Part shown: one piece after another, positions 1 to 57,900 of the stretch
Position numbering within the stretch: the stretch's first letter is position 1
Layout of the letters: each line of letters opens with the position of its first letter
From: Anadara kagoshimensis
Lineage: Eukaryota; Mollusca; Bivalvia; Arcoida; Arcidae
Assembly: GCA_021292105.1 (NCBI GenBank)
Contig: CM037869.1
Coordinates: 7,376,204 to 7,440,203, forward strand
Length of the DNA stretch: 64,000 nucleotides
Direction of reading: 5' to 3'
Program-made: the position numbers and the translations under genes
The notes under the pieces: generated by a model
What the model was told of the DNA's origin: nothing
Databases searched by the model: none
Seen by the model: the letters and a program-made list of their open reading frames with translations, nothing else

Positions 1-1022
1 ATCTCTTTTGTGGATCTAGAAAATTCCTGTAACCTTGCAAAGAAAATTCAGTTGAACCATCCGGTAGTGTATTGACAGTCTGGATAAACAAGATAAAAGT
101 TGCCTTTACTCTTGTATCTTCTTTTAAAGGCACTGTGTACACAACAAAACTTTTCAAAAGCGGCATTTCGAATTTCTACTGAAGTGTTGTGTGTCTTTGA
201 AAATGGTCAAACCAAAACACAACCACCAATTGCAGACAGATTTGTGGCACTGATTCTTATAAATGCGCTAGCTTTAAAATGTCCATGGGTGACCTTTACC
301 TACATTGGAATATAAAGTATCAAAAATTTCAGTTTAAAAATAAGTAAATATGGATAATAAATAAATTTTTAAAAAATCTACGAAATATATGATTTTGGAC
401 ATATAATTTTGTATGCGCACATGAATGTAAGTGAGTGCGAGCAATGTTTCGAGATATATGACTATCTAGATAATGCCTTAAGTCCTTTGACAAGCTCTGC
501 ATTTTGTTGAAGTTTCTAAACAGAGAGAGAGAGGTGGTTTAAAAACATAATTCATTTACATTTGTGTATCCACTTTCCTTGCTCCCCGAAGATGTGGCTA
601 TCTTTTGCTGGCTTTGACCTTTTGAATCTTTAGTCACATTTCTAATCTTCTTGCGATAATATTCAAATGTTCCAAACCTTGAATATAGAAATGTAAAACT
701 CTAAATGAATTCATAAGCCAAAGGTAACTTTGGGCAGAAAGATAGAGCGGTTATTTCACCAACAGTTGCGGGAAAATGCAAATATTTTAACACTGCAATA
801 TTTCCCAAGGTGACAGTTAATTAATTTGTAAGTTTGAAATAGTGATAATACAGTATTTACCTAGTATTAGGGTTTTGACGTGAGTTTACAACGAAGTGTA
901 TGATAAAAAGCTGACGAGGGCAGTTTTGTTACAATTTTGCAGTAAGGTTTTCATTTTCATAATCAAAAATAAGTTATATGTTTAATTCGTCTATTGTAAA
1001 ATAATGTAACATACAACAGCAA
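1..1022. other. Non-coding, no gene seen
   Basis: AT-rich sequence with stops in all frames. The only longer open frame (100-315, +) has no domain, no splice context and no coding-like composition. I see no repeat family here beyond short GA and AT runs. Confidence 0.5.
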
Positions 1023-10216: not shown

Positions 10217-12402
10217 AGCTCACCTGACCGAAGGTCATGTGAGCTTATGGCATAGCGCAGCGTGTGTATGTGCGTGTGTGCGTCGTTAACACCTATTTTC
10301 CACTTCTCCTCTGAAACTACTGGACAGTTTTTAATGAAACTTTGTCAGAAGTATTAATGGGCCGGTGCAATTCAGATTTGTTCGTGGCGTTGCCATGGCT
10401 ACCATAACTAGGTCAAGGTGACCTAGGGGTGCAAAAATCTTAAAAAATCTTCTTCTCCGAAAGTACTGATTGGAGAAAAAATCTGATGTGATATTTGGCT
10501 TCTCTAGGGTCTTAAGCCTATAGTTTGTTCATTTTGTAAAAATCGGATAAAAAATAGGTTACGCGTTTTTGCGTTTAATTTTGAAAAAATCGTAAAATAG
10601 CTTCAAATTGTTATAACTTGACCATTTGACCAGATAATGACATGGGGTTTTCAGTTTTGACATCTTCTTGTTAGTATCTTCAAAATGAGGTCAAGGTCAA
10701 TTGTGAAGGTCGTGACCTAATTTTTTTACCTCTGATTATAATTATTATCTCGAAAACTATAAACTTTTTGTATAGGCATGTATATTAGAATGTTGTAGGT
10801 ATTGATACAACGGTCATTATGATGTATAGAAAAAGGTCATGGGTTCAAAGGTCAAGGTCACAGATGTGAAACAATACCGAAATGGTTAATTATCTCGAAA
10901 ACTATAAACTTTTTGTATAGGCATGTATATTAGAATGTTGTAGGTATTGATACAACGATCATTTTGATGTATAGAAAAAGGTCATGGGTTCAAAGGTCAA
11001 GGTCACAGATGCGAAACAATACCGAAATTGTTAATTATCTCGAAAACTATAAACTTTTTGTATAGGCATGTATATAAGAATGTTGTAGGTATCAATACAA
11101 CGATCATTTTGATGTATAGAAAAAGGTCATGGGTTCAAAGGTCAAGGTCACAGATGTGAAACAATACTGAAATGGTTAATTATCTCGAAAACTATAAACT
11201 TTTTGTATAGGCATGTATATTAGAATGTTGTAGGTATTGATACAACGATCATTTTGATGTATAGAAAAAGGTCATGGGTTCAAAGGTCAAGGTCACAGAT
11301 GTGAAACAATACTGAAATGGTTAATTATCTCGAAAACTATAAACTTTTTGTATAGGCATGTATATTAGAATGTTGTAGGTATTGATACAACGATCATTTT
11401 GATGTATAGAAAAAGGTCATGGGTTCAAAGGTCAAGGTCACAGATGTGAAACAATACTGAAATGGTTAATTATCTCGAAAACTATAAACTTTTTGTATAG
11501 GCATGTATATAAGAATGTTGTAAGTATTGATACAACGATCATTTTGATGTATAGAAAAAGGTCATGGGTTTAAAGGTCAAGGTCACAGATATGAAACAAT
11601 ACTGAAATGGTTAATTATCTCGAAAACTATAAACTTTTTGTATAGGCATGTATATTAGAATGTTGTAAGTATTGATACAACGATCATTTTTATGTATAGA
11701 AAAAGGTCATGGGTTCAAAGGTCAAGGTCACAGACGCGAAACAATACCGAAATAGTTAATTATCTCGAAAATTATAAACATTTTGTATAGGCATGTATAT
11801 TAGAATGTTGTAGGTATTGATACAATGATCATTTTGATGTATAGAAAAAGGTCATGGGTTCAAAGGTCAAGGTCACAGATGTGAAACAATACCGAAATGA
11901 TTAATTATCTCGAAAACTATAAACTTTTTGTATAGGCATGTATATTAGAATGTTGGAGGTATTGATACAACGATCATTTTGATGTATAGAAAAAGGTCAT
12001 GGGTTTAAAGGTCAAGGTCACAGATGCGAAACAATACCGAAATGTTTAATTATCTCGAAAACTATAAACATTTTGTATAGGCATGTATATTAGAATGTTG
12101 TAGGTATCGATACAACGATCATTTTGATGTATAGAAAAAGGTCTTGGGTTCAAAGGTCAAGGTCACAGATGTGAAACAATACTGAAATGGTTAATTATCT
12201 TGAAAACTATTAACTTTTTGTATAGGCATGTATACTAGAATGTTGTAGTATAGGCATGTATACTAGAATGTTGTAGGTATTAATACAATGGTTATCATGA
12301 TGTAAAAAAAAGTCATTGGGGTTTAGTATTTATGTTTTCTTTAAATCTATCAGCTAGCCATTAGTTATCAGGTGAGCGTATCAGGCCCATGGGCCTCTTG
12401 TT
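10217..12402 (+). mobile_element. Pearl/HINE-like element with tandem core (145-bp units)
   Basis: The left end is AGCTCACCTGA and the right end is TCAGGTGAGC, a 4-nt spacer, then TCAGGCCCATGGGCCTCTTG: a subterminal inverted repeat plus a terminal palindrome. Next to the left end is a GTGTGTATGTGCGTG microsatellite and a ~480-bp unique arm, then the array. No ORF is present, so it is non-autonomous. Bivalve pearl elements and Helentron-associated elements (HINEs) share this palindrome plus tandem-core design; the family assignment is inference. The same arms occur inverted at 37388-39713. Confidence 0.75.
10733..12290 (+). repeat. Tandem array, eleven 145-bp units
   Basis: The landmark CGAAAACTAT occurs at 10751, 10896, 11041, 11186, 11331, 11476, 11621, 11766 (one change), 11911, 12056 and 12201 (one change). 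Every step is exactly 145 bp, so there has been no net indel in any unit. Units differ by a few substitutions. Each contains GGTTCAAAGGTCAAGGTCAC, with two nuclear-receptor-like AAGGTCA half-sites. The array ends in a partial duplication near 12250. Confidence 0.95.
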
Positions 12403-13276: not shown

Positions 13277-16200
13277 TCAGTCATCTGAATGAGCATGTGA
13301 ATGAGCAGCAGATGATTTGGCAGCAATTTTCACTTTGTACCTTGTACATTTTCTAACTTGAGCGAACAGGAAAAATAATGGTATGAAACATCAGTTTAAC
13401 AGCTTTTGTTTGTCTGCACTGCTATCATCAAGAAAATTATCTCTGGTATACAAACATTTTGAAATTTCAAAGCAGCTATATGAGGACGCTTTCAGATGCG
13501 TACATGTTGGTTGTTCAAACTAGATATAAATATGTGACAAAACTACATGCCAAACACATAAATTGATATAAATTAAAATATATGATGATCATTTCAAATT
13601 TATATTAGTTGGTTCTAAGAATAAAAAAATAATAAAATCTTACAAAAACTATGTTATGCTAGCTCGAACTTTTTCGGTTGATATTATGACGTCGGAATTT
13701 TTACTTTGACATCATATTAGAATTATATTTTAAGCCTTCGTGTCCAGATATATTTGAATCGGAAGATTTAGTTTTTATTTTGCATGATGCATATACAAAA
13801 ATGTATGAAGTTTACCTGAATTATTACTCAAGTCTTTTCCTTTACTGTTAAGCAACACCTGTTCAGTAGATCTGTTGTCAGCTGTACTTGTCAAATCTAT
13901 TTTATTTTCTGCCTCATTTACAGGTGCATTTTGTTGTACCTGTACCAGATTTATTGTATTTATCATTTCTTCACTCTGATTTGTAGGTGTGCTATTAGCT
14001 GTCATTTGCCATTTTTTTCTCCGGCAGCCACTCCTCTTCTTCTTCAAGGAATAAAATCGTTTCACCTTTAATTTCAAGTAGAACATCACTATCCTCAATT
14101 TCAGATCCATCACTGTCTAGAACGACTTTTGTCAGTTTTGTTGATTCGATAGATAATTTTTCACAACCTGAAAAAAAGAGCATAACAGGTATTGCAAGTC
14201 ACTGACATTGTTACACTAAAACAAAAGCTGTCGCCGAATGACAGCCAGTTATACCCCCTACTCACTGAACCCTGAATCAATATGGTAAATGTGTGTGGGC
14301 ACAATACAAGTATGGACACCAGTGCTAGGGGCTGTCTTGAACTTACTATAAGGTATGAGCAGAGCTCATTGTTGAAGGCCTCAGGGTGACTTCAAGATGA
14401 AGAACGACAATAAAAGCGTTGTTCCATTGCATTGCTTAGTTTTTGCCATGCACATTTTGTATTTGTAGAGATTTTGTCTTGTGTGCATTTACTCAATATT
14501 TACTCAGTTAACATCCTACAGACCGGAAATTTCCCCAGGACACATCAAAATCTGATAGACAATAAATATTCTACAGCCAAATATATGCAAACCCCTAATT
14601 TGCCCTTTTTTAAACAGACGGGACCACAACCAAACCAACCAAACCCTTGCTTTTATGCCAAGGAACATTGTGATAAAATTTCATCAACTGGAACTAATGT
14701 TATTGATCAAAAACAAAAGTGTATACAGACAATGACAACGAAGACAGCGCCGTACCATAATACGACATCAAATTTTTTGCAGTCGTATAAAAAATAAGGG
14801 GAGCAGGGAGATGTCAGTCCTCTCATACTTAAACATATTATCATGTGTCGAATTATGTTAGTAACTAATAGTGATAAAATTCTGATTTCATTAAACAAAA
14901 ATACACGGTAAATATAGCAAATCAAAATTAAAAACATTTTGATATAACTTTTATTTTGATATTTAAACCAGAGGCTCAGGATGAGCCTGTATCGCTCACC
15001 TGACTAAAATGCTTTTAAAGCAAATTTGTATATATGCTTTTCCAATAGTGTCCAATGTGAAACAACTTTCTCCGCTGGCAGCCATGTTTTATGGCAGATC
15101 AGAAAATTTTTGGCAATCTATGTAAAGGACCTTTTATACATCATTCCTGTAAAGTTTGGTTCAACTTGCTTCAGTCATTTCTGAGGACATAGTCAAAAAC
15201 GTGTTTTTCCCACAGGGTCCAATGTTTAACTATCTTTTGCGCTGACAGCCATGTTTTTTGGCGGATCAGAAAAATTTTGGCAATCTAAGTAAAGGACCTT
15301 CTATACATCATTCCTGTGAAGTTTTGTGAAATTTGCTTCACTAGCTTCAGAGGAGATAGCATATATATGCTTTTCCCATAGGGTCCAATATTAAACTATC
15401 TCCTGCGTTTGCAGCCATGTTTATTGGCAGATCAGAAAAATTTTGGCAATCTAAGTAAAGGACCTTCTTTACATCATTTCTGTAAAGTTTGGTTAAATTC
15501 GCTTCAGTCATTTCTGAGGAGATAGCCAAAAATTGGTTTTTCCCATAGGGTCCAATGTTAAACTATCTTCTGCGCTGGCGGCCATGTTTTTAGGTGGATC
15601 AGAAAAATTTTGGCAATCTTTGTGAAGGACCTCCAATACATCATTTCTCTAAAGTTTGGTTAAGTTTGCTTCAGTAGTTTCAGAGGAGATAGCCAAAATG
15701 TGTTTTTCCCATAGGGTCCAATGTTAAACTATGTTCCCCGCTGGCAGCCATGTTTTTAAGCGGATCAGAAAAATTTCGGCAATCTTTGCAAAAGACCTTC
15801 GATACATCATTCCTGTAAAGTTTAATTGAATTCGCTTCAGTCGTTTCAGAGAAGATAGCCAAAATGTGCGTTTTCCCATAGGGCCCAATGTTAAACTTTG
15901 TTTGGCCCTGGCGGCCATTTTTTTTTTGGCGGATCAGAACAATTTGGGCAATCTTAGTAAATGACCTTACATATATTATTCCTGTAAAGTTTGGTTCAAA
16001 TTAGCTCAGCGGTTTCAAAGAAGATAGCAAATTTATGATTTTCCCATAGGGTCCAATGTTAAACTATCTTCTGCGCTGGCAGCCATGTTTTTTGACGGAT
16101 CAGAAAAATTTTGGCAATCCAAATAAAGGACCTTCCTTACACCATTCCTGTAAAGTTTGGTTAAATTTGCTTCAGTCATTTCTGAGGAAATAGTTAAAAA

Positions 16201-16715
16201 TGCATTTTTCTCATAGGGTCCAATGTTAAACTATCTTCTGTGCTGGCAGCCATGTTTTTTGGCGGATCAAAAAAATTTCGGCAATCTAAGTAAAGGACCT
16301 TCCATACATCATTCCTGTAAAGTTTGGTTAAAATTGCTCCAGTGGTGTCAGAGGAGATAGTCAAAATGTGAAAAGTTTACGGACGGACGACGACGACGGA
16401 CGACAGACGACGACGGACGCCAAGTGATGGCAAAAGCTCACATGGCCTTTGGCCAGGTGAGCTAAAAAGCAGTATAAAATTAATTTCGTTTAAAATTTAT
16501 TATTAATCTATTATAGTAGTCTGATTATTTCCGATAATAGATTATTTATTGTACAAAACGTTTGAGGGATTTCATATAAGAATATTTTGATAGGGTTTAA
16601 ATTTAAAAACAATCAAGAACGTTTTCTTACCCTTTCTCCTGAGATCATCCAGGTCATTTGCTACTACTGTCTTTTTCACTGATCTTGCACAATTCCATAT
16701 TTTATACAAATGCAT
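13277..16715 (-). CDS. CIDE-N-domain protein, three exons, one frame slip
   Basis: Exon 1 (16715-16631) starts at an ATG and encodes IWNCARSVKKTVVANDLDDL; exon 2 (14167-13816) continues CEKLSIES...KVVLDSDGSEIEDSDVL...ILFLEEEEEW; exon 3 (13356-13277) encodes a basic, His-rich tail with a stop. Donors GTAAGA and GTAAAC, acceptors TTTTTTTCAG and CGCTCAAG, and phase 1 at both junctions all agree. Exons 1 and 2 together match the ubiquitin-like CIDE-N fold of DFF/CIDE proteins (DGxxI/V-D...L...T...L...W). A run of seven A in exon 2 (about 14017) shifts the frame; six would keep it open, otherwise translation stops at 13995. The ATG lies 88 bp after the transposase pseudogene's stop, on the same strand. 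Length would be about 172 residues. Role unknown. Confidence 0.55.
14969..16467 (-). mobile_element. Pearl/HINE-like element, second family (167-bp units)
   Basis: Plus-strand left end CAGAGGCTCAGGATGAGCCT is an imperfect palindrome followed by GCTCACCTGAC; the right end is GGCCAGGTGAGCTAAAAAG. These are the same terminal features as the 145-bp family. A (GACGGACGAC)n-type repeat at 16381-16422 precedes the right end. The core repeat is unrelated in sequence to the 145-bp unit. It lies entirely within the CIDE-N gene's first intron. Confidence 0.75.
15010..16375. repeat. Tandem array, eight ~167-bp units
   Basis: The landmark AGGGTCC (or a one-base variant) is at 15046, 15213, 15380, 15547, 15713, 15880, 16048 and 16215, steps of 166-168 bp. 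Each unit includes GGCAGCCATGTTTTTTGGCG and CATTCCTGTAAAGTTTGGTT. Minus-strand ORFs of ~60 codons recur once per unit and are artefacts of the repeat. Confidence 0.95.
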
Positions 16716-16937: not shown

Positions 16938-19900
16938 CAGGGTTAGTACAGAAAACTTGTGACAAAATTCCCTGACTTTTCCCTGACTTTTCCAGATAGT
17001 TTATAAATTTCCATGACTATTGTAGCTTACATGTATATAAATATAATATATAGTAAAAGGATAATTACTGTACTGATTATATTCCAAACTTAACCTGTTT
17101 TGTATGTATGGCCATATACAAATACCAAAAAAAATAAATACATAAAATACCTCAAACTATTTTATTTCTTTTACTTGACATTAAATGTTCACATTTTCTT
17201 TAATAACTCCACCTCTTGTTGCAACTTATCATTTATCTCCTTAAGCTGACCCTCTTTCTCCTTTACAGACCTCTTAAAACTGTTACCTTGTGTAACAAAC
17301 ATTATCTTGCCTGTCTGTTCAGCCTTTACATACAAGTCATCAGCTGCTTTTGTTAACCCATTTATATCAGACTCAAGCCTTCTCTTTTTGATTTTTATTT
17401 CATCTATGACATCAATTTGCGCTTTTCTCTTATTTCTTTCAACTTCACTCTTTCTTTTCTGTCTTTCTTTCTCTAAATATACCTCATATTTCTGTCTAGC
17501 CATTTTACATGAAAGTAACAAATCCTTGGTCAATAACACATTCTTTATCCCACCAACATATTTGACATGATCAATAATTACTCTCTGAGCAATCAATGAA
17601 TGAGCCTTCAAATTTTCTACCTCAACCTCCTTATTGATACTAAAACCTCTCTCCACAGATGCTTGACCATGAGACATAACCAGAAATAACTTTATAAAGT
17701 TAAAAAGAGGTACATAATCATCCACTTTAGTGACAATCATTGTGTCATAATACAAACTGTCTAATGAATCTTCACTCTTTCTGAAGTTAGTAAACTTCTC
17801 ATCTTTAATTTTATCAATGAACACTACAAAACTCCTGTACAATGCATCACACTCACTTTCACCAACTTTCTTAGCATTCATCATTAATGATAATACCTTC
17901 TTGAAAAGTGTCTTACATTCCTCTTTCTCATTTGCCATCCTAACTGGATTTAAGCAACTCAGTTTTCTGACAAGAGAATAAATAACAGGTGATTTAAGCA
18001 ATAGTTTCTTGACAGTTGCAATCAGAAAGTCTCTACAAGATAATCGAAATTCTAAAATTTGTTTTTCACTTACACCCAGCCCCTTTTTCTTTAATATATT
18101 ATCACATGCAAAACCAACATCAATTTTACTGACATGCACATACATCTCTTTATCCTCTTTAGAATCAATTTTTATTTTTACCAGTTGCTCATCACTCATG
18201 TTACTTATCGTTTCACTGTTCATAAATCTAATCAATAAGCTCCTAATTAAGCTACACAAATCATCTCCTATAAAGGGCAACATTGGTCTGTCTGTCTGAT
18301 ATAATGCAAGAAATGGCCTCAACTGCAGTGCAACACTCATGAAAAAATTGAGCTTGGCAGTAAATAACTTGTCTTTCATACATGAAGAAATTACTTCATA
18401 AGATTTGTTACCTGGATTTGGTATTTTTTTTTCATTTACAGATTTTACATATTTGTCTATGTTGTTAAAAAGTTCAACAGCCCGTTCACAAACTGGAACA
18501 TTTTCAAGCCATCTGTGGCTGCAAAATTTAAGGGGCATTTTTGAACTACCTGTTAGTGTGACATAATCTTCTCTTCGTGCAGGGGAATCTTTAAAAAGAT
18601 AATAGAGACTAGACAAATATGATGCAACCTGCCACTTGCTTGCATCTGCACCACATTTGAAGCTATTGTGAACTATATGCAGACCACAGGAACCAATGTT
18701 TAGTAATTGTGTTCCATAATCATCAACCAGTTTCTGTTTCATAATTTCAAAGAACTTCCAATTAACATTTGGCCCGTCCATACTAATCTGCAGCATATCT
18801 GGTATTTTCAATCCACTTTCAAGAACACAATTTCCAAAATGCTTCACCATGTCCTCGCTTGTACCATGGCCTGAAATAAATTAAAACAGCTTACTAACAT
18901 AAACAATGTATTATGTATTTTGATGCCTAACATTTAAAAGTAGTAAAAACATTTTAAATTTTGGTTTCACATAAACTTAGTGACTGACTGGATGAACATC
19001 TCATGAATAAAAAAACTAAAATGATTCCAAGTAATTGGTAAACATATATTTTTTAATTATTAGTTTAAATTCACAACTAATTATTAGTTTTATTTCACAA
19101 CTAATTATTAGTTTTAATTCACAACAAATTATAAATCCTAAACTTACTCGTATTTAAGCATGTCTAACATGTCTTGTAAAATATATATTTATTGTTATAA
19201 CATATAATGTAACTTCATTATTAGCATGCTCATTTCTGGTTATTAAAACATTTTATTTTCAAATACCTTTAATTAAACATACCCAAGAATTCCGATACAA
19301 AATATCTGGTCACAATTTTATTCAGCTGAGTGTCCCAGTAACGAATATGGAGATCCATTTGTTTCTCTGCATAGCTTTGTTGAGGCTCTCATCAAACAAG
19401 ATAACATATGGTCCACTTATATTTTGTTTTAACATTCTTTGGAAATGTTCACATAATCCAAATACAGCTATGTAAGCCGTTTTTTTGTCTGCACATGTAA
19501 AATTGTTTGCTATGGTACTGTCTGGAAACATCATTTTAAATGTCTCTCCTATTTTTTCATTACTTTTAAATGATTGATGAAAAATAACAGTTCTTAATGT
19601 CCAAATTATTTCCGCTTTCAGAACGTCAAATTTTTCCAAAAATGTTTTAATTTGCTGTGTATTACTGGTACCAGTAGTATAAGCTTGCTTTGGAGACGGA
19701 GGTGGCGGTATCTGCAACTGATTTTTATCAATGCATTGCCGTTATTTTCGGCAGCCGCATTCTCGCCATCATTCAATGAACATGATGCTTGCATATCGTC
19801 ACAGGCACTTTCAGTTTCGGAACGTCTTTCATTTTTCACGAAATTAAATAAAGATAAATCAGTCTCTGTAACTGTTCCTTTTCCCGACATTTTTTGTGTT

Positions 19901-20422
19901 TAGCACTTTTTAAGTGTGATTTCAGGGCACCCTCGCCCATATTACCAAGATCGATCGCTTTATAACACCATACGCAATTTACTTTATGCTTGTCGCCTTT
20001 AAACGGTCTGACCCAGTTCTTGTACAATGAGTGGGTCAACCACTGTGAATTAAATACACATTTGCCAGCAGGCATAATGCATTCCAAAATGATGAATCAC
20101 CGGAAACCGGAACTGGAGCATACCAAGGGAGAAAACTCGTGTAATATAACTGCCAGAGAGAATAGAAAACGGTAAATGCCATGAATCCGGTTTTGTGCGT
20201 AACAGAAAAATTCCCGATTTTTTTCCAAAAAAATAGTGATCAGTTGACATGTTTTAGAATTCTATATGGTTTTATTTGTTCTAGCAATCAAAAGATTAAA
20301 TTCCATGACTTTTCAATGACCATATAGCAATTTCAATGACTTTTCCAGATAAAAATCAATTTCACTGACTTCTCCAGAAATTGCAGAAATTCAATGACTT
20401 TTTCAGATCTGTGCGAACCCTG
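16938..20422 (-). mobile_element. hAT-like element nested in the transposase pseudogene
   Basis: Ends are CAGGGTTAGTACAGA (16938, +) and, on the other strand from 20422, CAGGGTTCGCACAGA. The 5-bp direct repeat TAACT flanks both sides (16933-16937 and 20423-20427), and removing the element with one TAACT restores an open frame in the host pseudogene. Subterminal copies of ATGACTTTTCCAGA occur at both ends. CAGGG termini fit hAT; most hAT elements duplicate 8 bp, though 5-bp groups are known. Confidence 0.8.
17189..20087 (-). pseudogene. hAT-like transposase: BED finger, exon 1 broken, exon 2 intact
   Basis: Exon 1 (about 20087-19283) begins with a BED-like finger (W...Y..W, C-x2-C, H-x4-H), a linker, and then LKAEIIWTLRTVIFHQSF, MFPDSTIANNF and FDESLNKAMQ. 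It has three single-base frame slips, near A-runs at about 19890, 19725 and 19370. Donor GTATGT (19282) and acceptor ATTTATTTCAG (18871) define a 412-bp intron. Exon 2 (18870-17189) is a clean 560-codon frame with MDGPNVNWKFFE, SCGLHIVHNSFKCG, FCSHRWLEN and the dimerisation-type SHGQASVERGFSINK, and ends in a Lys-rich coiled coil. Long open plus-strand frames over this exon are antisense shadows. Confidence 0.75.
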
Positions 20423-22869
20423 TAACTTATAATGAAGTATATGCTGATTTAAAACGGCTTGTCCAGAAGTACACTGAATAACAAAGTACTTGTCTTTTTT
20501 ATAAACAATTATGATTTTAACAATTCCAAATATTGGAATGTCATCCTCATAGTGCAGAACTAATGCACAACCACACTGATAGTTTAGACCATGAATTGAT
20601 ACAGCATCTGTCTCGTATACAATTAAATCATTATCAAGACTAACACCTAGAATTTGTGCAAACTGTGGAAATAAATTTGGATACTTTGCTTTGAATTCTG
20701 TTTCTTTCCCAGTAGAAACTGTGTCACCATCTTACAGAAAGTTATTTGATCTATTTCCATCAACGCCTGTTTGTTTTAAACACATGTACAACTGATGATG
20801 TCGACTAAGAGAATAAGGAAGATTTTTAATTTTTTTTTTATCTTTTTAGCTTTGAAAAAACCATGTTTCCCTTCAAAACGCATACAACCGTGATGTTTCA
20901 CCGGTCCATACTGTAACATTTGTTGCGGAAAATGAATTATGTAATGTTTCTTTGGAATAAAGGACGCTTTTGGATACAAAGTTTTATTTTTCCTGAGGTA
21001 TATACCAATCATTATTCTTAAGACTGCGGCAGTTTCTCTGTGACAATAGGAACTTAAGCACAGTATCACTATTTGTGTAAGTCCAAGAAAATTAATCCAG
21101 TATTCGTTATCCTCAGGTATTTTCTGGCCAATTATTAAAGGCAATACCTGACACAGTGTGAAAAGCGCATAGATGATGACTGCTTTACAGTTGTACAATT
21201 TTCAACATCGCCTTTCTCACAATTGGCCTCTGGTTGATTTTTTTTATGCAAGTAGCTATATTCAAATGATCTGATTTTATCATTAAGCCACTTTAGTGTG
21301 AATAGTTTCTGTGAGTAGACAAAATGACAACTCTCTCGGTAAAATTCCCGCTAAAATATATGCATCGGGTCTTGTACCAGTCCAGAAGTAATAGAAGAAT
21401 TCTGTATATTCATTAAACTGCTGCGCCCGTTCACACCCCACATTTTACTCCAATACCTCTGAGTACCTTTTGAAAGCTGATCAAGAAAATCAACTTGCTC
21501 AGCGTGCCTTTCATTTGTTCTCATGACACACTCCGAGTCAAGCGACTTGTTTTTCATATCGATACCTGTGACATCACACATTCTGCAATTTTTTAAAGCA
21601 AACGCAACTCCCTCTTTGAATTTCCCAAGCCAATTTGCTGCTAAGGTATCAGCTGGTACTATTACCAATGCACCCTGTATGTTTTCAGGTCGGTCATTTA
21701 TCAAGATTTCAGTTCCATTGTTTAAAATATTTGTACTTGATATAAAGTCATCCAGTAATTTTTCAATACCCCCTTCTTCTCTCACATCACTTGTTTTTGC
21801 AATAGCTGGATAGCATGCAATTTGGACCGATACTGGGGTGGAATATTTGCAACTGAGAAATAAAACATAGAAAGTTTGTGTTTGGTTATATGAGTGCCTA
21901 AAGGATTGACTATTTCAATATTATCAGTATTCAAAACAATCTGAAGAGCATGTGGGTTTTATTGAAATAAAGGATTAGATCTCACATATTCCCCATCACA
22001 AATATCATACATGAACTCATTTGCTGAAAAATGAGGATTCTGGATGCAGTTCCACACTTCAGGCAGTTGCAGTAACATGTTGAGAGACTTCAAAAATAGG
22101 ATATAATAACCTATTTTTTGTTTTTCAGTAATTACATTGTTTTTAGTCACATGGCGAACACCTAGGACTACTTCTTCTGGTTTTAGAAAGGGCAAATTTT
22201 CACATTTCTCATACACAGAGTATCGTTTAGTAGAACTATTAACATTATTCAGCATATGATCAATTTTGATATCTTTTAAAAATTCAGAGTTTATGTTCCT
22301 CAACTCTAGCTCTCCAGCAATTTGTTTTTTTAAGTGATCCAGTTGCGCATTCAACAATATACTTGTGGAAGAAACTATACTGTCGATTGCTGTTTGACTA
22401 ACAATATACTTGGCCTCTAATGCCATTGTAAAGAGTGCATTGTGGTGACTTAAACTGTCCCGACTATGAAATGGAACAGGATTTGTTTCGTAATCATCTA
22501 AAACCATGTTAATCTCATTGCAATTATTGACATTAGCTGGCTGTATATCTTCAATTTTATGCTTTCTATGAACATGCACTTTAAAAGTGTTCCATCTACG
22601 CGTTGTAAATTCGCAAGCTCCGACACCACAGGAAACCGAAAAACTTGGGTCATTTTTGTGATATCGGACGTAATGATTGCTAAATTTTCTAAATAAGCTG
22701 GTGCTAAAAGAACATAGATTGCATTTGAAACATTCTTCCTCTTCCATTTCGTTTCAGATTTGTCTATAATTATATCATACCGTCTCTGTAATTCACTCGT
22801 TGTTCTTGTAACAAAGGAGGCGCCAAAAGTGTCACTATCGGTTTCCGGTGTAACGCGCATGAATTCTGG

Positions 22870-31339: not shown

Positions 31340-32060
31340 CAGACTTGTTCCACAAAACGGAAGATACTGAGAAAATCAGATTGTCCATCGAAGATCAAGA
31401 GTTTCTACATATTATGGATACGTCATTTGAGAACGATCAAACTGGAAGAAGATTTGTTGCCAAAAACAGATCCCAAGCTTTACGTCGAGCTCACTCATTG
31501 GGTTCAAGCTTATGTCGTGATCCTAAGAAGCGGGATTATGTTAAAGAGTTCACGAAGAAGCTATTTGTTAGACACCCTGCTGAATAGGCTCCTAGTTTAC
31601 CCGATAATTAAGACGGTGCCTACCTATATTTGGTATCTATCCCCCAAGAAACCTGACTTCATTCGAGTAGTATTCGATTCCTCAGCACGTTGTGGTGGCA
31701 CTTCGCTTAAAGACGTTCTTATTAAATCCCCAGACCGGATCAGATTTTGTCAAAAGTCTTCAAGGTACTATGATGCGTTACGTTGTGAGAAATATGCCGT
31801 TTGGGCTGATGTTCCACAATTTCCTTGTGACTGAAAACCATCGTAGTTATCTGCGCTTATTGTGGCATGCTGACAATTTAGATTTTCCTTTAGGTGATTT
31901 CCAAATGACCGTCCATGTATTTGGTAACACAACATAGCAAGCTTTTGCAAATTATGGGCTTCGTAAGAGTGTGTCACTTGCAGATAACGATGTCCAGGAC
32001 TTTGTGTGCCGTAACTTTTATGTAAATGATGGACTTGTAAGTTGTTCTAGTGTTTCACAC
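31340..32060 (+). pseudogene. BEL/Pao-type retrotransposon pol fragment (reverse transcriptase)
   Basis: Short blocks in three frames match BEL/Pao pol: IEDQEFLHIMD and RSQALRRAHSLG (31390-31520), PDFIRVVFDSSA (31650), LRLLWHADN and MTVHVFGNT (31850-31930), then an in-frame TAG at 31935 and FYVNDGL at ~32020. In intact family members the last block has two catalytic aspartates; here one is Asn, and with two frameshifts and the stop the copy is dead. No LTR, protease or integrase is seen in the window. Confidence 0.8.
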
Positions 32061-32846
32061 AAAATGGCTTGAATCTGTCATTTTTAGACTTTTTCAGTCA
32101 AAATTAAAATTTCAGTGGAGGGTGCCAATGGCCCTCCTTCCAATATTTCTTTATTCCAGAAAACACCATAAATTGTACATACATATGTCAGAATCGAGGG
32201 ATCTCGGAGTAATATTGTTTAATGTTTAAATGCATGAAAAAATGCTAATTTTTCATAAATGCTTGTAGTATTTAGTATGGATGAATTCAGTTATTTTTGC
32301 TAATATTTATAGTTTTATATTTCAAATGATTAAAAAAATCAAACTTAAATTGGTTAATTGTTTTAATCTTCATTTCCTGAAATGCAATATAATATAGTGT
32401 GTAAGTCCGTTTTATTATTTGTATATTTTAGGATCTATTTAAAAGAGCAGTAAAATGTACTTAAATCCGGCTGATGTGTTATGAATTGATTATTTAACAC
32501 TGGCTAAATTTTTATAAAATATTTAGGCTCATGGTGGATGCAAGTACACGTAGGCCTATTATTAACTTATTTCTCATTGACAACCGCTGCAACTGCTGGC
32601 GAACCTCTTCACCAACAAAACAAATAACTGCCTCACTTCTTTCTCTTGCATTTTGAAATTAAAATATTTGAAACTTTGCAGAAAATTTTAAAGGGGACGC
32701 ATTATGAATAAACCCTTCTGTATTACCCGCATTCCCCTCAACTTTTCGATGTTTTGCACTGCTCGCCATGTTGTTTCTCAAAACTTTATTATATATTTAT
32801 GATATTATTTCCCGAATAAGAAGTTAATTTACATTCTGTATGTTCT
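32061..32846. other. Non-coding, nothing recognised
   Basis: AT-rich, no ORF or repeat identified between the BEL/Pao fragment and the retrozyme-like repeat. Confidence 0.45.
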
Positions 32847-32877
32847 AATTCCATATTATACCAGTTTTAATTTTTAC

Positions 32878-32923
32878 AGCACTAGACGGCCGTTTCGGAA
32901 TACAATTCCTCATCAGTAGTGCT
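32878..32923 (-). ncRNA. Type I hammerhead ribozyme, copy 1
   Basis: Minus strand in order: stem I strand AGCACTA; core CTGATGA; stem II GGAAT, loop TGT, ATTCC; GAAA; a two-pair stem III (AC...GT) capped by GGCC; GTC cleavage triplet; stem I strand TAGTGCT. All conserved core positions are present and both stems I (7 bp) and II (5 bp) pair perfectly. Cleavage is predicted between 32885 and 32884. The self-complementary GGCC loop and minimal stem III suggest cleavage as a dimer, as described for animal hammerheads. Confidence 0.9.
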
Positions 32924-33197
32924 TGGACCAAATTTATGAAACCAAGATTTTTTTGAAGATGTTGAAAACTTACCCAAAGGACCAAAATATATTTTACCAA
33001 ATTAAGCTAAGGAAATACTTTGCATGAGGGAGTATACCTTAGTTTTTGAGAAATTTTGAATTTTAACTTTCAGGAAATTTAGACAATAATACAAAATTAT
33101 TGCCTACTGAGTTGGTGATATCCTCGGGGCACCAGCCACCAGCAGAGATATCGGTTCAGGGGTTTAAATTCGATATTATACCAGTTTAAATTTTTAC

Positions 33198-33243
33198 AGC
33201 ACTAGACGGCCGTTTCGGAATACAATTCCTCATCAGTAGTGCT
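33198..33243 (-). ncRNA. Type I hammerhead ribozyme, copy 2
   Basis: Identical in sequence to copy 1 and exactly 320 bp away, with the predicted cut between 33205 and 33204. Perfect conservation of the ribozyme while the unit bodies differ at several positions is consistent with selection on the ribozyme or a recent origin. Confidence 0.9.
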
Positions 33244-33408
33244 TGGACCAAAATTATGAAACCAAGATTATTTTGAAGATGTTGAAAACTTACCCAAAGA
33301 AACCAAAATATATTTTACCGAATTAAGCTAAGGAAATACTTTGCATGAGGGAGTATACCTAGTTTTTGAGAAATTTCAAATTTTAACTTTCAGGAAATTT
33401 AGACAATT

Positions 33409-33790
33409 ACAGTATTACTCTTTAAACCTAAGGTTTTGTTAAGTTGCCATGGTATTATATTCGCCACACTACCTGTATAAATTTGAATACATTTTTAGTA
33501 ATATATAAAAAAATCTTCCAATTTATACTTACACAGCGCTCTCTCTTCGCGAGATGTTTCTTCCTCGGGAATATTTCTATAGTTGCACATTTGGTATATG
33601 ATATTCTTTATTCTGTGCAAATGCATTAGCTAGCACAAAATAACCTGTTTACTTTCTTTGTCACACGCTTTATAATGTGCTTGCTTTACTGTACCTCATA
33701 AGCTTTGCTATATGTATTTACAGCGTTACATCTTGACTTGGCTTCAGCACAGTTTTAGGTACTTGCATTGCATTATGCAGGTACCTAATT
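33409..33790. other. Non-coding, nothing recognised
   Basis: No domain; short ORFs only. Confidence 0.4.
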
Positions 33791-34120
33791 TTGCGCAGAA
33801 GACAGAACAGACGCAGGGAGAGGATTCGACAGAGAACACGGGGGTTCGAGTTTCGGACACCCCCTAGCCAGACGTCCCATGCGACCATAAAAAAGGACAC
33901 TGGCACCCAGACCAGACCAACAGCAGTGCCAGCACTGTTAGTCACCCCTACGACCATCAATTATCATAGGGATGCCGAATACGGCCCAGTCGGTGAAGCC
34001 AGTTTTCACTCGGCGGACGGCACCCCTAAGATGATTGATGATCGTAGAGGTGAGGTGGGGAGTCTTCTACGGAGGAAACGGTTATGTTTAAAAATAAAAA
34101 TACATGTACCGTATATATAA
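33791..34120 (+). CDS. Hypothetical GC-richer ORF, Arg-rich start
   Basis: Base composition rises sharply here compared with both flanks, and one frame stays open for 109 codons without an ATG start. It encodes an Arg-rich stretch, then KKDTGTQTRPTAVPALLVTP and a charged end. An acceptor-like TTTACAG lies at 33721. The GC step suggests a transferred or coding segment, but no family is recognised. Confidence 0.25.
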   Translation: MRRRQNRRRERIRQRTRGFEFRTPPSQTSHATIKKDTGTQTRPTAVPALLVTPTTINYHRDAEYGPVGEASFHSADGTPKMIDDRRGEVGSLLRRKRLCLKIKIHVPYI

Positions 34121-37387: not shown

Positions 37388-39713
37388 ACAAGAGGCCCAT
37401 GGGCCTTATACGCTCACCTGATAACTAATGGCTAGCTGATAGATTTAAAGTAAACGTAAGTACTAAACCCCAATGAATTTTTTCTTTACATCAAAATGAT
37501 CATTGTATCAATACCTACAACATTCTATTATACATGCCTATACAAAATGTTTATAGTTTTCAAGATAATTAACAATTTTAGTATTGTTTTACATCTGTGA
37601 CCTTGACCTTTAAACCCATGACCTTTTTCTATACATCGAATTGATTGTTGTATCGATACCTACAACATTCTAACATACATGCTTATACAAAAAGTTAATA
37701 GTTTTCGAGATAATTATTTCGGTATTGTTTTCACATCTGTGACCTTGACATTTGAACCCATGACCTTTTTCTATACATCAAAATGATTGTTGTATCAATA
37801 TCTACAACATTCTAATATACATGCCTATACAAAAAGTTTTGAGTTTTTGAGATAATTAATCATTTCTGTATTGATTTGCATCTGTGACCTTGACCTTTGA
37901 ACCCATGACCGTTTACTATACATCAAAATGATCGTTGTGTCAATACCTACAACATTCTAATATACATGCCTATACAAAAAGTTGATAGTTTTCGAGATAA
38001 TTAACCATTTCTGTATTGTTTCGCATCTGTGACCTTGACCTTTGAACCCATGACCTTTTTTTATACATCAAAATGATCGTCGTATCAATACCTACAACAT
38101 TCTAATATACATGCCTATACAAAAAGTTTATAGTTTTCGAGATAATTAATCATTTCTGTATTGATTCGCATCTGTGACCTTGACCTTTGAACCCATGACC
38201 TTTTTCTATATATCAAAATGATCATTGTATCAATACCTACAACATTCTAATATACATGCCTATACAAAAAGTTTATAGTTTTCGAGATAATTAACCATTT
38301 CAGTATTGATTCGCATCCGTGACCTTGACCTTTGAACCCATGACCTTTTTCTATACATCAAAATGATCGTCGTATCAATACCTACAACATTCTAATATAC
38401 ATGCCTATACAAAAAGATTATAGTTTTCAAGATAATTAACCATTTCGTTGTTGTTTCGCATCTGTGACCTTGACCTTTGAACCCATGATCTTTTTCTATA
38501 CATCAAAATGATTGTTGCATCAATACCTACAACATTCTAATATACATGCCTATACAAAAAGTTTATAGTTTTCAAGATAATTAACCATTTCGGTATTATT
38601 TCGCATCTGTGACCTTGACCTTTGAACCCATGACCTTTTTCTTTACATCAAAATGATCGTTGTATCAATATGTACAACATTCTAATATAAATGCCTATAC
38701 AAAAAGTTTATAGTTTTCGAGATAATTAATTATTTCTGTATTGTTTTGCATCTGTGACCTTGACCTTTGAACCCATGATCTTTTTCTATACATCAAAATG
38801 ATCGTTGTATCAATACCTACAACATTCTAATATACATGCTTATACAAAAAGTTTATAGTTTTTGAGATAATTAACCATTTCTGTATTGTTTCGCATCTGT
38901 GACCTTGACCTTTGAACCCATGACCTTTTTCTATACATCAAAATGATCGTTGTATCAATATCTACAACATTCTAATATAAATGCCTATAAAAAAAGTTGA
39001 TAGTTTTCGAGATAATTAACCATTTCTGTATTGTTTTGCATCTGTGACCTTGACCTTTGAACCCATGACCTTTTTCTATACATCAAAATGATCTCTGTAT
39101 CAATACCTACAACATTCTAATATACATGACTATACAAAAAGTTTATAGTTTTCGAGATAATAATTATAATCAGAGGTAAAAAAAATTAGGTCACGACCTT
39201 CACAATTGACCTTGACCTTAATTTGAAGATAATAACAAGAAGATGTCAAAACTGAAAACCCCATGTCATTATCTGGTCAAGTAGTCAAGTTATAACAATT
39301 TGAAGCTATTTTACGATTTTTTCAAAATTAAACGCAAAAACGCGTAACCCATTTTTCAACCAAATTTCACAAAATGAACAAACTATAGGCTTAAGACCCT
39401 AGAGAAGCCAAATATCACATCAGATTTTTTCTCCAAACAATACTTTCGGAGAAGAAGATTTTTTAAGATTTTTGCACCCCTAGGTCACCTTGACCTAGTT
39501 ATGGTAGCCATGGCAACACCACGAACAAATCTGAATTGCACCGACCCAGACATGCTTCTGACCAAGTCTCGTTGAAATCTGCCAAGTACTTTCAGAGAAG
39601 AAGTTGTTTAAGTAAAGTTTACGGACGCACGCACGCACGCACGGACGCACGCACATACACACGCCGCATCATACCATAAGCTCACGCTGGCTTTAGCCAG
39701 GTGAGCTAAAAAA
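37388..39713 (-). mobile_element. Pearl/HINE-like element, 145-bp family, inverted copy
   Basis: ACAAGAGGCCCATGGGCCTT followed by CGCTCACCTGATA at the left, and AGCCAGGTGAGCTAAAAAA at the right, with (CGCA)n sequence at 39620-39660 beside the right end. Its ~500-bp arm (39165-39690) is the reverse complement of the arm at 10235-10733, so the two are the same family in opposite orientation, 25 kb apart. Confidence 0.75.
37500..39160 (-). repeat. Tandem array, twelve ~145-bp units
   Basis: The landmark CTACAACATT recurs at 37514, 37660, 37802, 37947, 38092, 38237, 38382, 38527, 38672 (variant), 38817, 38962 and 39107. After the first two steps (146, 142) every step is exactly 145 bp. Same unit as at 10733, complementary strand. 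Confidence 0.95.
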
Positions 39714-40500: not shown

Positions 40501-40616
40501 AAAACAAACATCTTCAAAATAATTTTGGTTTCATTATTTTGGTCTAAGCACTACTGATGAGAAATTGTATTCCGAAACGGCCGTCTAGTGCTGTAAAATT
40601 AAAACTGGTATAATAT
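40501..40616 (+). mobile_element. Solo retrozyme-like fragment
   Basis: Carries the hammerhead and about 45 bp of flank matching the 320-bp unit at 32847 (ATTTTGGTTTCAT... and AAACTGGTATAATAT), in the opposite genomic orientation. The rest of the unit is missing. It abuts the retroelement repeat at 40621. Confidence 0.65.
40547..40592 (+). ncRNA. Type I hammerhead ribozyme, copy 3 (weakened stem II)
   Basis: Same core as copies 1 and 2 (CTGATGA, CGAAAC, GTC, 7-bp stem I) but stem II reads GAAAT/ATTCC, giving one A-C mismatch. Cleavage is predicted after GTC at 40585. The core is intact, so residual activity is possible. Confidence 0.8.
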
Positions 40617-40620
40617 GTAA

Positions 40621-40885
40621 TACTAATCCATATCCGAATCACAATCAAGAAGCAAAGTAAAAACTTTAGAACTGACAAGTTTGGTTATACACGTGAACTT
40701 CCACCAGGGAAGTGAGGCCGGGTGCGTCGAAAGGGTAAGCACCTCCGGTTTAGCTAGCTACACCCGCCACGTGTGTAATGAAAATTGTGTGAAAGGAACA
40801 TGGAACTATGAGACGTCAAAAATACCCAGGGCAATCCTGGATACAGAGACATCAAACTTTGTCAACAATACTGTGATGACGTACT
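40621..40885 (-). repeat. Retroelement 3'-end repeat, copy 3 (family A)
   Basis: Longest-class copy, matching 28129-28390 throughout, same orientation. It directly follows the solo hammerhead fragment. Confidence 0.7.
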
Positions 40886-49224: not shown

Positions 49225-49440
49225 TTCCTATTGGTGATATGTTCTTCATTAGGAAGTTTAACATCGTTTATATACCTACTGCTTCTAAAACATGGCAATT
49301 CCAATTAAAAGTAAAACTACATGTAATTATTTAATTTAAGAATATTAAACTAAGTTATGAATAGTCTAAATTTATAAAATACTGATTCGCTTTAAATTAT
49401 CGATAGTTATTATTTCATGGAGTGACCAGTACGATTGTTT

Positions 49441-49718
49441 TTGATTTGAAATAAAACAATCTTAACATTTATCTTTCCCGTTGCAACTTGTTTCGTTAGT
49501 ACTGGTTTTGTCAGAATCCTTCTCACTAAGGCATGTTTCATTGCCTGTTTCTTCTACTCCTGAATAAAATATTATTTTTTTGATTTGAAATAAAACAATC
49601 TTAACATTTATCTTTCCCGTTGCAACTTGTTTCGTTAGTACTGGTTTTGTCAGAATCCTTCTCACTAAGGCATGTTTCATTGCCTGTTTCTTCTACTCCT
49701 GAATAAAATATTATTTAT
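49441..49718 (-). repeat. Perfect 139-bp tandem duplication containing an exon-like segment
   Basis: Two copies (49441-49579, 49580-49718) appear identical. On the minus strand each has an acceptor-like TTTTATTCAG and a frame GVEETGNETCLSEKDSDKTS...KC followed by TAA, so each looks like the same short terminal exon. Neighbouring gene not identified. Confidence 0.75.
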
Positions 49719-56181: not shown

Positions 56182-57900
56182 ACAAGAGGCCCATGGGCCT
56201 TAACGCTCACCTGAGGACGAGTACATATCTTATGCAGAGGTTCAATGGTCAATGACATTAATAAAAGAGAATATCAAAATTTTCAGCAGTAAGGGCCAAT
56301 AATATGCAAGTATTTTTGCAAATTAATTATAATAATTATTATATAAGGATGCTATATATAACATTAAAAGTCTAGCTACAATATATTTATAAACAGCTAA
56401 AACATCTGTATATTAAAATGTGCATTAGGCCAATACCTACAATATTCCATATACAAAGAGTTTATAGTTTTTGAGATAATTAACCATTTAAGTATTCGTT
56501 GGCATCTATGACCTTGATCTTTGAACCTATGACCTTCATTCATATATCAAAATGATTGTTGTGCAAATGCCTACAATATTCCAATATACATGCCTATACA
56601 AAAAGTTTATAGTTTTTGAGAAAATTAACCATTTAAGTATTCATTTGCATCTATGACCTTGCCCTTTGTACCTATGACCTTCATTCATATATCAAAATGA
56701 TCATTAGGCCAATACCTACAATATTCCAATATACATGCCTATACAAAAAGTTAATAGTTTTTGAGATAATTAACCATTTAAGTATTCATTTACATCTATG
56801 ACCTTGACCTTTGAACCTATGACCTTCATTCATATATCAAATTGATTATTAGGCCAATAACTATAATATTCCAATATACATGCCTATACAAAAAGTTTAT
56901 AGTTTTTGAGATAATTAACCATTTAAGTATTTGTTCGCATCTTTGACCTTGACCTTTGAACCTATGACCTTTATTCATATATCAAAATGATCGTTAGGCC
57001 AATACCTACAATATTCCAATATACATGCCTATACAAAAGTTTATAGTTATTGAGATAATTAACCATTTCAGTACTTGTTTACATGTGACCTTGACCTTTG
57101 AACCTATGACCTTTATTCATATATCAAAATGACCATTGTGCCATTACCTACAATATTCTGATATACATGCCTATACAAAAAATTCATAGTTTTGCAGATA
57201 ATTAACTATTTTGGTATTCTTGGACATCTGTGACCTTGACCTTTGAACCCATGACCCTGATCTTTGTATCAAAAAATGATTGTCATGTCAATACCTACAA
57301 GTAACTGAAAATCCTATGCCATTATCACAAGAAATGTTAAAAAAATAAGCATTTTTTATCAAAGGTCAAAAACTGGGACATGACCTTGACCTTCGACCTT
57401 GACATCAATTGGAAGAAAATTGCAAGACAAGATCAACAGTGAAAACTCCATACAATTATCTTCAGCCGTTATGAAGTTATAACAATAAATGTCTCATTTT
57501 AAAAATTACATAATTTTACGCAAAAAACGCGTAACCCATTTTTCGTCTAATTTTCATGAAAAACACAATTTTAATGTTCCCAGGTATGCTGAATCCAAAT
57601 ATCCAATCAAAATTTGCCTGCACCTTTTGCTTTCAGAGAAGAAGATTTTTTTGTCTTTTGCTATTTTTAGTAACAGCTGCCATCTTGGTGGGCGTGGCCA
57701 AACCCCGAACACAATTTTGAAAGGCTGTTACCTAGGCATGATAACCACCAAGTTTCATCAAATATGGCCCAGTAGTTTTGAAGGAGAAGATTAAAATGTA
57801 AAGTTTACACACGACACACGACGCACGACGCACGACGGACGACGGACGGTGATAGATTACAATAGCTCATCTGAGCTTTTTGCTCAGGTGAGCTAAAAAA
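56182..57900 (-). mobile_element. Pearl/HINE-like element, diverged 145-bp family
   Basis: ACAAGAGGCCCATGGGCCTT then CGCTCACCTGAGG on the left; TTTTGCTCAGGTGAGCTAAA on the right, preceded by (GACGGAC/GACGCAC)n at 57808-57850. Arm sequence includes GCAAAAAACGCGTAACCCAT as in the other copies. Older or different subfamily judging by substitutions in the units. Confidence 0.75.
56420..57315 (-). repeat. Tandem array, seven ~145-bp units
   Basis: Landmark CTACAATATT at 56437, 56571, 56716, 56861 (variant), 57006, 57148 and 57295; the central steps are 145, outer ones 134-147. Units hold GACCTTGACCTTTGAACC as in the other arrays. Confidence 0.9.

Follow-up and report, generated by a model that had tools for sequence, protein, structure and literature searches.

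Genomic copies of a hammerhead retrozyme family in the clam Anadara kagoshimensis end at a fixed position beyond the predicted ribozyme cut

Two identical hammerhead ribozymes spaced by exactly 320 bp raise the question of what kind of element carries them and how its copies return to the genome. Here we report the analysis of such a locus in a window of 64,000 nucleotides (the whole stretch of DNA that was analysed) from the clam Anadara kagoshimensis (assembly GCA_021292105.1, contig CM037869.1, positions 7,376,204 to 7,440,203), which the original prediction had described as retrozyme-like from its letters alone. It is very probable that the locus belongs to a high-copy, non-autonomous retrozyme family whose members are inserted from a fixed start.

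The cores of the two hammerheads (CTGATGAG-GAATTGTATTC-CGAAAC-GGCC-GTC) are located on the minus strand at 32885-32916 and 33205-33236 and are identical, at the predicted distance of exactly 320 bp. Reading of the sequence also bore out a complete type I core, perfect stems I and II, and a minimal stem III with a self-complementary GGCC: in both hammerheads, stem I (AGCACUA/UAGUGCU) has 7 bp and stem II (GGAAU/AUUCC) has 5 bp, each perfectly paired, and stem III has 2 bp and the loop GGCC, with ACGGCCGU forming an 8-nt palindrome. Both hammerheads open at stem I and are of type I, not the type III hammerheads within LTRs that characterise plant LTR retrozymes. A generic hammerhead pattern matched the 64-kb window three times (0.01 matches expected; three or more matches in none of 100 shuffles). 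Rfam yielded no hammerhead in the window at gathering scores, and at laxer limits only other families, all below gathering scores (3 and 22 matches in two runs); the hammerheads are perhaps missed because stem III has only 2 bp. By hammerhead rules, cuts after each GUC would release an RNA of 320 nt, from 33204 down to 32885. The features of the element, and of a solo copy in the same window, are the following:

32847..33417, minus strand: retrozyme element consisting of a 5'-truncated partial unit, one full 320-nt unit and a 3' tail (blastn to the unit)
33205..33417, minus strand: 5'-truncated partial unit, ending in the first hammerhead (blastn; unit positions 106-320, 94% identity)
33198..33243, minus strand: first hammerhead, whose stem I is formed by 33237-33243 and 33198-33204 (core 33205-33236 by pattern, arms read from the sequence)
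33206-33213: palindrome ACGGCCGT of the first hammerhead
32885..33204, minus strand: complete unit of 320 nt, bounded by the predicted cleavage sites 33205^33204 and 32885^32884 (core spacing; cleavage position from hammerhead rules)
32878..32923, minus strand: second hammerhead, whose stem I is formed by 32917-32923 and 32878-32884 (core 32885-32916 by pattern, arms read from the sequence)
32886-32893: palindrome ACGGCCGT of the second hammerhead
32847..32884, minus strand: 3' tail, 38 nt past the predicted cut, ending in ...TATAATATGGAATT at the junction with unrelated flank (blastn; most copies end at the same position)
40507..40621, plus strand: solo copy truncated at its 5' end; it has a single hammerhead (core at 40554-40585, with one pair of stem II broken) and carries the same 3' tail (pattern and blastn to the unit)

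The element has a length of 571 nt and runs from 33417 to 32847 on the minus strand; it is longer than the extent of 32847..33408 originally assigned to it. It encodes no reverse transcriptase: all 13 stop-to-stop frames of 130 aa or more in the window lie outside the element. The G + C content is 34% over 32001-34000, and repeat detection at the locus returned the copies of the unit plus a single short inverted repeat. Aligned over 254 columns, the two repeat copies at the locus show 10 substitutions and 4 gap columns (approximately 4% divergence), and the window unit lacks 20 nt between two ATTGTC repeats when compared with the 339-nt family consensus. The ends and flanks of the element are the same in a duplicate locus (L009). 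The segment 31352-34948 around the retrozyme recurs in inverted orientation at G000:C13:11660900-11664500 with 99.3% identity; this second genomic copy includes 3.6 kb of flanks and would represent either a segmental duplication or an assembly artefact.

Elsewhere, the window contains arrays with a period of 145 bp (10744-12248, 10.4 copies; 37479-39161, 11.6 copies; 56450-57256, 5.6 copies), a 167-bp tandem array (15030-16370; 8 copies, 82% matches) and a tandem duplicate of a 139-bp unit (49438-49716; 100% matches). Several long minus-strand frames at 17189-22753, some of which were scanned without a Pfam match, are perhaps decayed transposon genes; of the 13 long window frames, ten were scanned against Pfam and none of these ten gave a match.

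The host assembly that was searched comprises 1.115 Gb in 36 contigs. One lysozyme exon in it (L101) resembles lysozymes with solved structures, most closely 2dqa, a protein of the clam Tapes japonica (33 of 58 residues identical), which points to a bivalve host. The 32-nt ribozyme had 14,471 matches with up to three mismatches on both strands (reversed control 0), and a search with the window unit gave at least 114 matches, with 40 of 3,025 candidates scored. Loci were sampled in two sets: 39 were fetched by similarity to the unit, and 49 on contig C1 were chosen by an exact ribozyme match, 42 of which were used in the end counts. The short units occur both as tandem arrays and as dispersed copies; in eight tandem elements they measure 315-340 nt, except for one 288-nt unit that is cut on its 5' side. 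The genome search for tandem copies that had been proposed recovered an array of 11 units (L047), and the description as retrozyme-like is upheld by the presence of type I hammerheads in short tandem units, the many dispersed copies and this 11-unit array. By its sequence, the window element can be assigned to the metazoan non-LTR retrozymes, an already known class (PMC7229834). Members of this class have units of 150-450 bp and lack LTRs, primer binding sites and polypurine tracts, and where they are flanked by target-site duplications these exceed 4 bp.

The ribozyme cuts had been taken as the natural ends of the element; the genomic copies end elsewhere. In transcript orientation, they pass the cleavage site by TAGTGCTGTAAAATTAAAACTGGTATAATATGTAAT and then give way to unrelated flank, whereas internal units run on into TTAAACCCC after the cleavage site. 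Among 90 non-redundant elements, 78 have their 3' end between unit positions 27 and 41, most often at position 37 (29 elements); two of the 90 end at position 44 and ten elsewhere, and some of these ten resemble later deletions. These counts started from 100 elements, from which 10 flank duplicates were removed; loci L001-L008, L049-L051, L053, L057, L067, L070 (overlap with other loci), L078, L098 and L100 were left out, as were pieces shorter than 50 nt or near locus edges. The 5' ends of the copies in the fetched loci fall at many places along the unit. Of 40 tailed elements in the C1 sample, 32 do not exceed 376 nt, which corresponds to at most one unit plus tail (chance neighbours included), and elements of 1.1-1.4 units are common in the samples. 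It was also considered whether 5' ends gather within the hammerhead once a lap is complete (16 of 36 overall), and no claim is made for this because 13 of 28 came from the sample whose query ends there and the C1 sample gave only 3 of 8 (p = 0.10).

The same asymmetry is visible genome-wide. Four 28-base patterns, searched like the 32-base ribozyme pattern on both strands with up to three mismatches, had 2,906 matches at positions 23-50 (across the end), 3,329 at positions 60-87, 10,195 at positions 196-223 and 18,834 at tail positions 10-37 (reversed control 3 for the tail and 0 for each of the others). The number of matches rises along the transcript, with the ribozyme at positions 308-339 (14,471), and drops 6.5-fold beyond position 37. 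The divergence per 20-nt bin in the sampled units (1.4-5.4%) is in our judgement too small to create this gradient, with the reservation that the divergence sample favours window-like copies and that older copies may differ. What is new here is that the ribozyme cut is not the end of the element: genomic copies end about 37 nt beyond it. In those parts of the literature that were searched, we found no description of animal retrozymes whose 3' ends lie at a fixed position beyond the cut.

Target-site duplications, which had been suggested as a further mark to look for, were not evident as a general feature among 73 elements: the best exact match had a mean length of 4.2 nt, little above the 3.6 nt of shuffled pairs, and lengths of 5-7 nt were slightly over-represented. 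Genuine duplications may exist at L031 (9 nt) and at L013 and L093 (7 nt each); a long candidate at L054 was rejected, as this locus sits inside a minisatellite. The base after GTAAT is T in 73% of 67 elements, and could be part of the element (internal copies have T there) or a target preference.

The tandem arrays bear on the kind of template. The 11 units of L047 are 99.4-100% identical, compared with 94-98% identity among the first units of eight elements. Within-element identity of the units is 97.3-99.7% in L024, 97.9% in L016 and 94.7% in L044, whose two units are no closer than units of different elements. In 38 elements, the first and the last 36-nt post-cleavage segment differ by 1.47 edits, compared with 2.51 in random pairings (0 of 5000 permutations). 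This favours one molecule of origin per element, and does not tell apart a circle, a multimer and later homogenisation. A linear unit released by both ribozymes has its end at the cleavage site and therefore cannot template copies that run 37 nt beyond it; a circle or an uncut RNA could template copies that pass the cut.

Alternatively, the arrays might have arisen in the manner of satellite DNA, by gene conversion or unequal crossing-over, with reverse transcription giving single copies only. Near-identical tandem units are usual for satellites, and two of the 11 units of L047 (L047:1857-2178 and L047:3196-3520) have the same 14-nt deletion, as copying between neighbours would give and as one circle does not simply predict. 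The arrays nevertheless share their 3' end with the solo copies, which crossing-over allows but does not require, and the frequency of 1.1-1.4-unit elements also counts against such an origin, which we regard as unlikely. As we read the sequence, the 5' end of the L047 array contains an internal jump at a short repeat.

In our preferred reading, the fixed 3' end, the count gradient and the near-identical array units fit a fixed internal start on circular or multimeric RNA. The same family could be inserted from the same start using an uncut linear, sometimes multimeric transcript as template, in which case the ribozyme would have no role in insertion. Copies do cross the cleavage site without a break, and the Penelope-like element of the anole, which is reported to start reverse transcription internally in vitro, is described as using mainly unprocessed RNA, judged its dominant substrate (PMC11167929). 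Such a template sits less well with the element sizes in the C1 sample, by which multi-unit sources are a minority, and yet there is a near-identical 11-unit array, and with a ribozyme that is less diverged than the body. We consider it a possible though not the expected template, and lean slightly towards circular RNA over uncut linear or multimeric RNA.

Divergence from the consensus was determined for 40 units from 32 loci; only full units were used, with no more than two taken from any locus, and five duplicate loci were excluded. The ribozyme (1.6%; 32 of 1978 sites) is about half as diverged as the body (3.1%; 312 of 10054 sites), and the tail (3.0%) is no more conserved than the body in the same units. 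Of 140 ribozyme-like instances from the fetched loci (nine duplicate loci left out), 110 have an intact core, a share that is inflated by the choice of C1 loci for an exact ribozyme; covariation in the stems of these 140 instances was limited to two-sided consistent changes in only 3 cells. The original prediction had pointed to identical ribozymes in differing bodies as a hint of recent or selected function. The identity is real but unremarkable alone, since about 50 positions at approximately 4% divergence would remain identical with a chance of roughly 1 in 8. A recent origin is not supported by the divergence between the window units (approximately 4%, compared with at most 0.6% in the least diverged array, L047), and selected function gains modest support, since across copies the ribozyme has diverged less than the body.

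The predicted minimum-energy fold of the isolated ribozyme is without stem III, and two ribozyme copies are predicted to fold as a double hammerhead sharing ACGGCCGU (-36.7 kcal/mol, compared with 2 x -13.4 = -26.8 kcal/mol for two single ones); by these models, self-cleavage may require both copies. In the predicted circle, stem I has a probability of 0.29-0.35 for the window unit and of 0.65-0.94 for the family consensus. The possibility that the circle folds with exceptional stability was considered and rejected (z -1.4 and -0.8).

We propose that a minus-strand transcript of at least two units would cut itself, probably as a double hammerhead in which the palindrome ACGGCCGU serves as shared stem III, and that the released unit would be ligated into a circle. 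A reverse transcriptase acting in trans would always start at the same place, some 37 nt downstream of the cut, and run toward the 5' end of the RNA; it would mostly halt before completing one lap, giving solo 5'-truncated copies, and would now and then complete several laps, giving tandem arrays. Transcription, cleavage, circularisation and the kind of transcriptase are steps that we infer from the genomic copies.

Candidates for the helper are present in the same genome, where a search for GIY-YIG gave at least 50 matches (150 of 248 candidates scored) that represent candidate Penelope-like elements. L098 contains a 762-aa frame that was read by eye as a Penelope reverse transcriptase with GIY-YIG. 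Also by eye, L098 and L099 have an apparent minimal hammerhead 3' of the nuclease, with GTAC or GCGC replacing stem III, and L100 has an apparent hammerhead with an altered core. All three loci continue into (TA)n, which the retrozymes do not. When the 3' region of L099 was used as query, 16 of the 17 best non-self matches (40 of 81 candidates scored) stopped at query positions 231-301, the zone of its (TA)n stretch, which lies at least some 90 nt beyond the presumed cut. Matches to this region often are inverted neighbours a few kb apart, such as C1:19414747 (-) and C1:19418990 (+). The retrozyme has no significant similarity to L098 or L100, and the sole significant similarity at L098/L099 is a separate retrozyme fragment on the minus strand of L099. 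The order of ribozyme, tail and junction is common to both groups; sequence and target differ, so that the L098/L099 family is not an obvious helper; its loci have (TA)n junctions and no tail in common with the retrozyme.

LINEs of the CR1, L2 or RTE kind leave a fixed 3' end, graded 5' truncation and mostly no target-site duplications. The helper might accordingly be a LINE of this kind, recognising the 37-nt tail as in SINE-LINE pairs, instead of a Penelope-like element. The retrozyme copies likewise have a fixed 3' end, graded 5' truncation and mostly no target-site duplications, and the (TA)n junctions of the Penelope-like loci that were read again set these apart from the retrozymes. On the other side, a short tail after the hammerhead has been reported for Penelope-like elements (PMC11167929; PMC3846280); a LINE helper is conceivable, and we would not presume it. 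Penelope-like elements have been named as likely or possible helpers of animal retrozymes (PMC7761336; PMC11722881); in these papers and in PMC7229834, proposals for the mobilising enzyme and for the form of RNA that it copies go no further than likely or possible candidates. We tentatively suggest that an enzyme of the Penelope type copies animal retrozymes from circular RNA with a fixed start about 37 nt past the cut, that the tail is a shared recognition signal, and that the transcriptase, not the ribozyme, sets the genomic ends.

The constant position of the 3' end, some 37 nt beyond the cut and visible over 18,834 tail matches, provides a signature by which a helper can be sought, as it should share the tail or the start site. 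Near-identical arrays such as L047 make the model of a circular template testable, and the footprint hints at how ribozyme-bearing transposons return to DNA.

Among known systems, the metazoan non-LTR retrozymes with circRNAs of 170-400 nt described by Cervera and de la Pena (2020; PMC7229834) include that of Mytilus galloprovincialis, which is reported in repeats of approximately 350-390 bp, with a circular RNA and about 5000 motifs. The clam family resembles the mussel retrozyme in its type I hammerheads, short tandem units (here approximately 315-340 nt), low G + C content (<50%) and thousands of motifs. It differs in that its copies are documented to have graded 5' truncation and a 3' end at a set distance of about 37 nt from the cut; neither feature was found in the consulted passages of PMC7229834, from whose main text the string 'truncat' is absent. 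Expression of circRNA has been demonstrated for the mussel retrozyme, whereas the clam family is known from its DNA. The hammerhead repeats of axolotl and newt, a vertebrate family treated in the same paper, likewise have a weak stem III; there, dimeric constructs were measured to cleave much better than monomers, whereas for the window retrozyme cleavage is predicted and a benefit of the dimer is suggested by the fold. The retrozyme unit (approximately 320-340 nt) differs from Penelope-like elements in having no ORF, reverse transcriptase or GIY-YIG, and from the Penelope-like loci that were read in this genome also in that its copies have no (TA)n junction and do not occur as inverted neighbours. 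It shares with Penelope-like elements a type I hammerhead, a short tail (31 bp in Adineta Penelope, PMC3846280; a 30-40 bp tail is mentioned by Frangieh 2024, PMC11167929), tandem or partial-tandem copies and 5' truncation. An internal start of reverse transcription after the hammerhead, as reported for the anole element (Frangieh 2024), is in the retrozyme visible as a footprint, namely the 3' ends at positions 27-41 of the unit.
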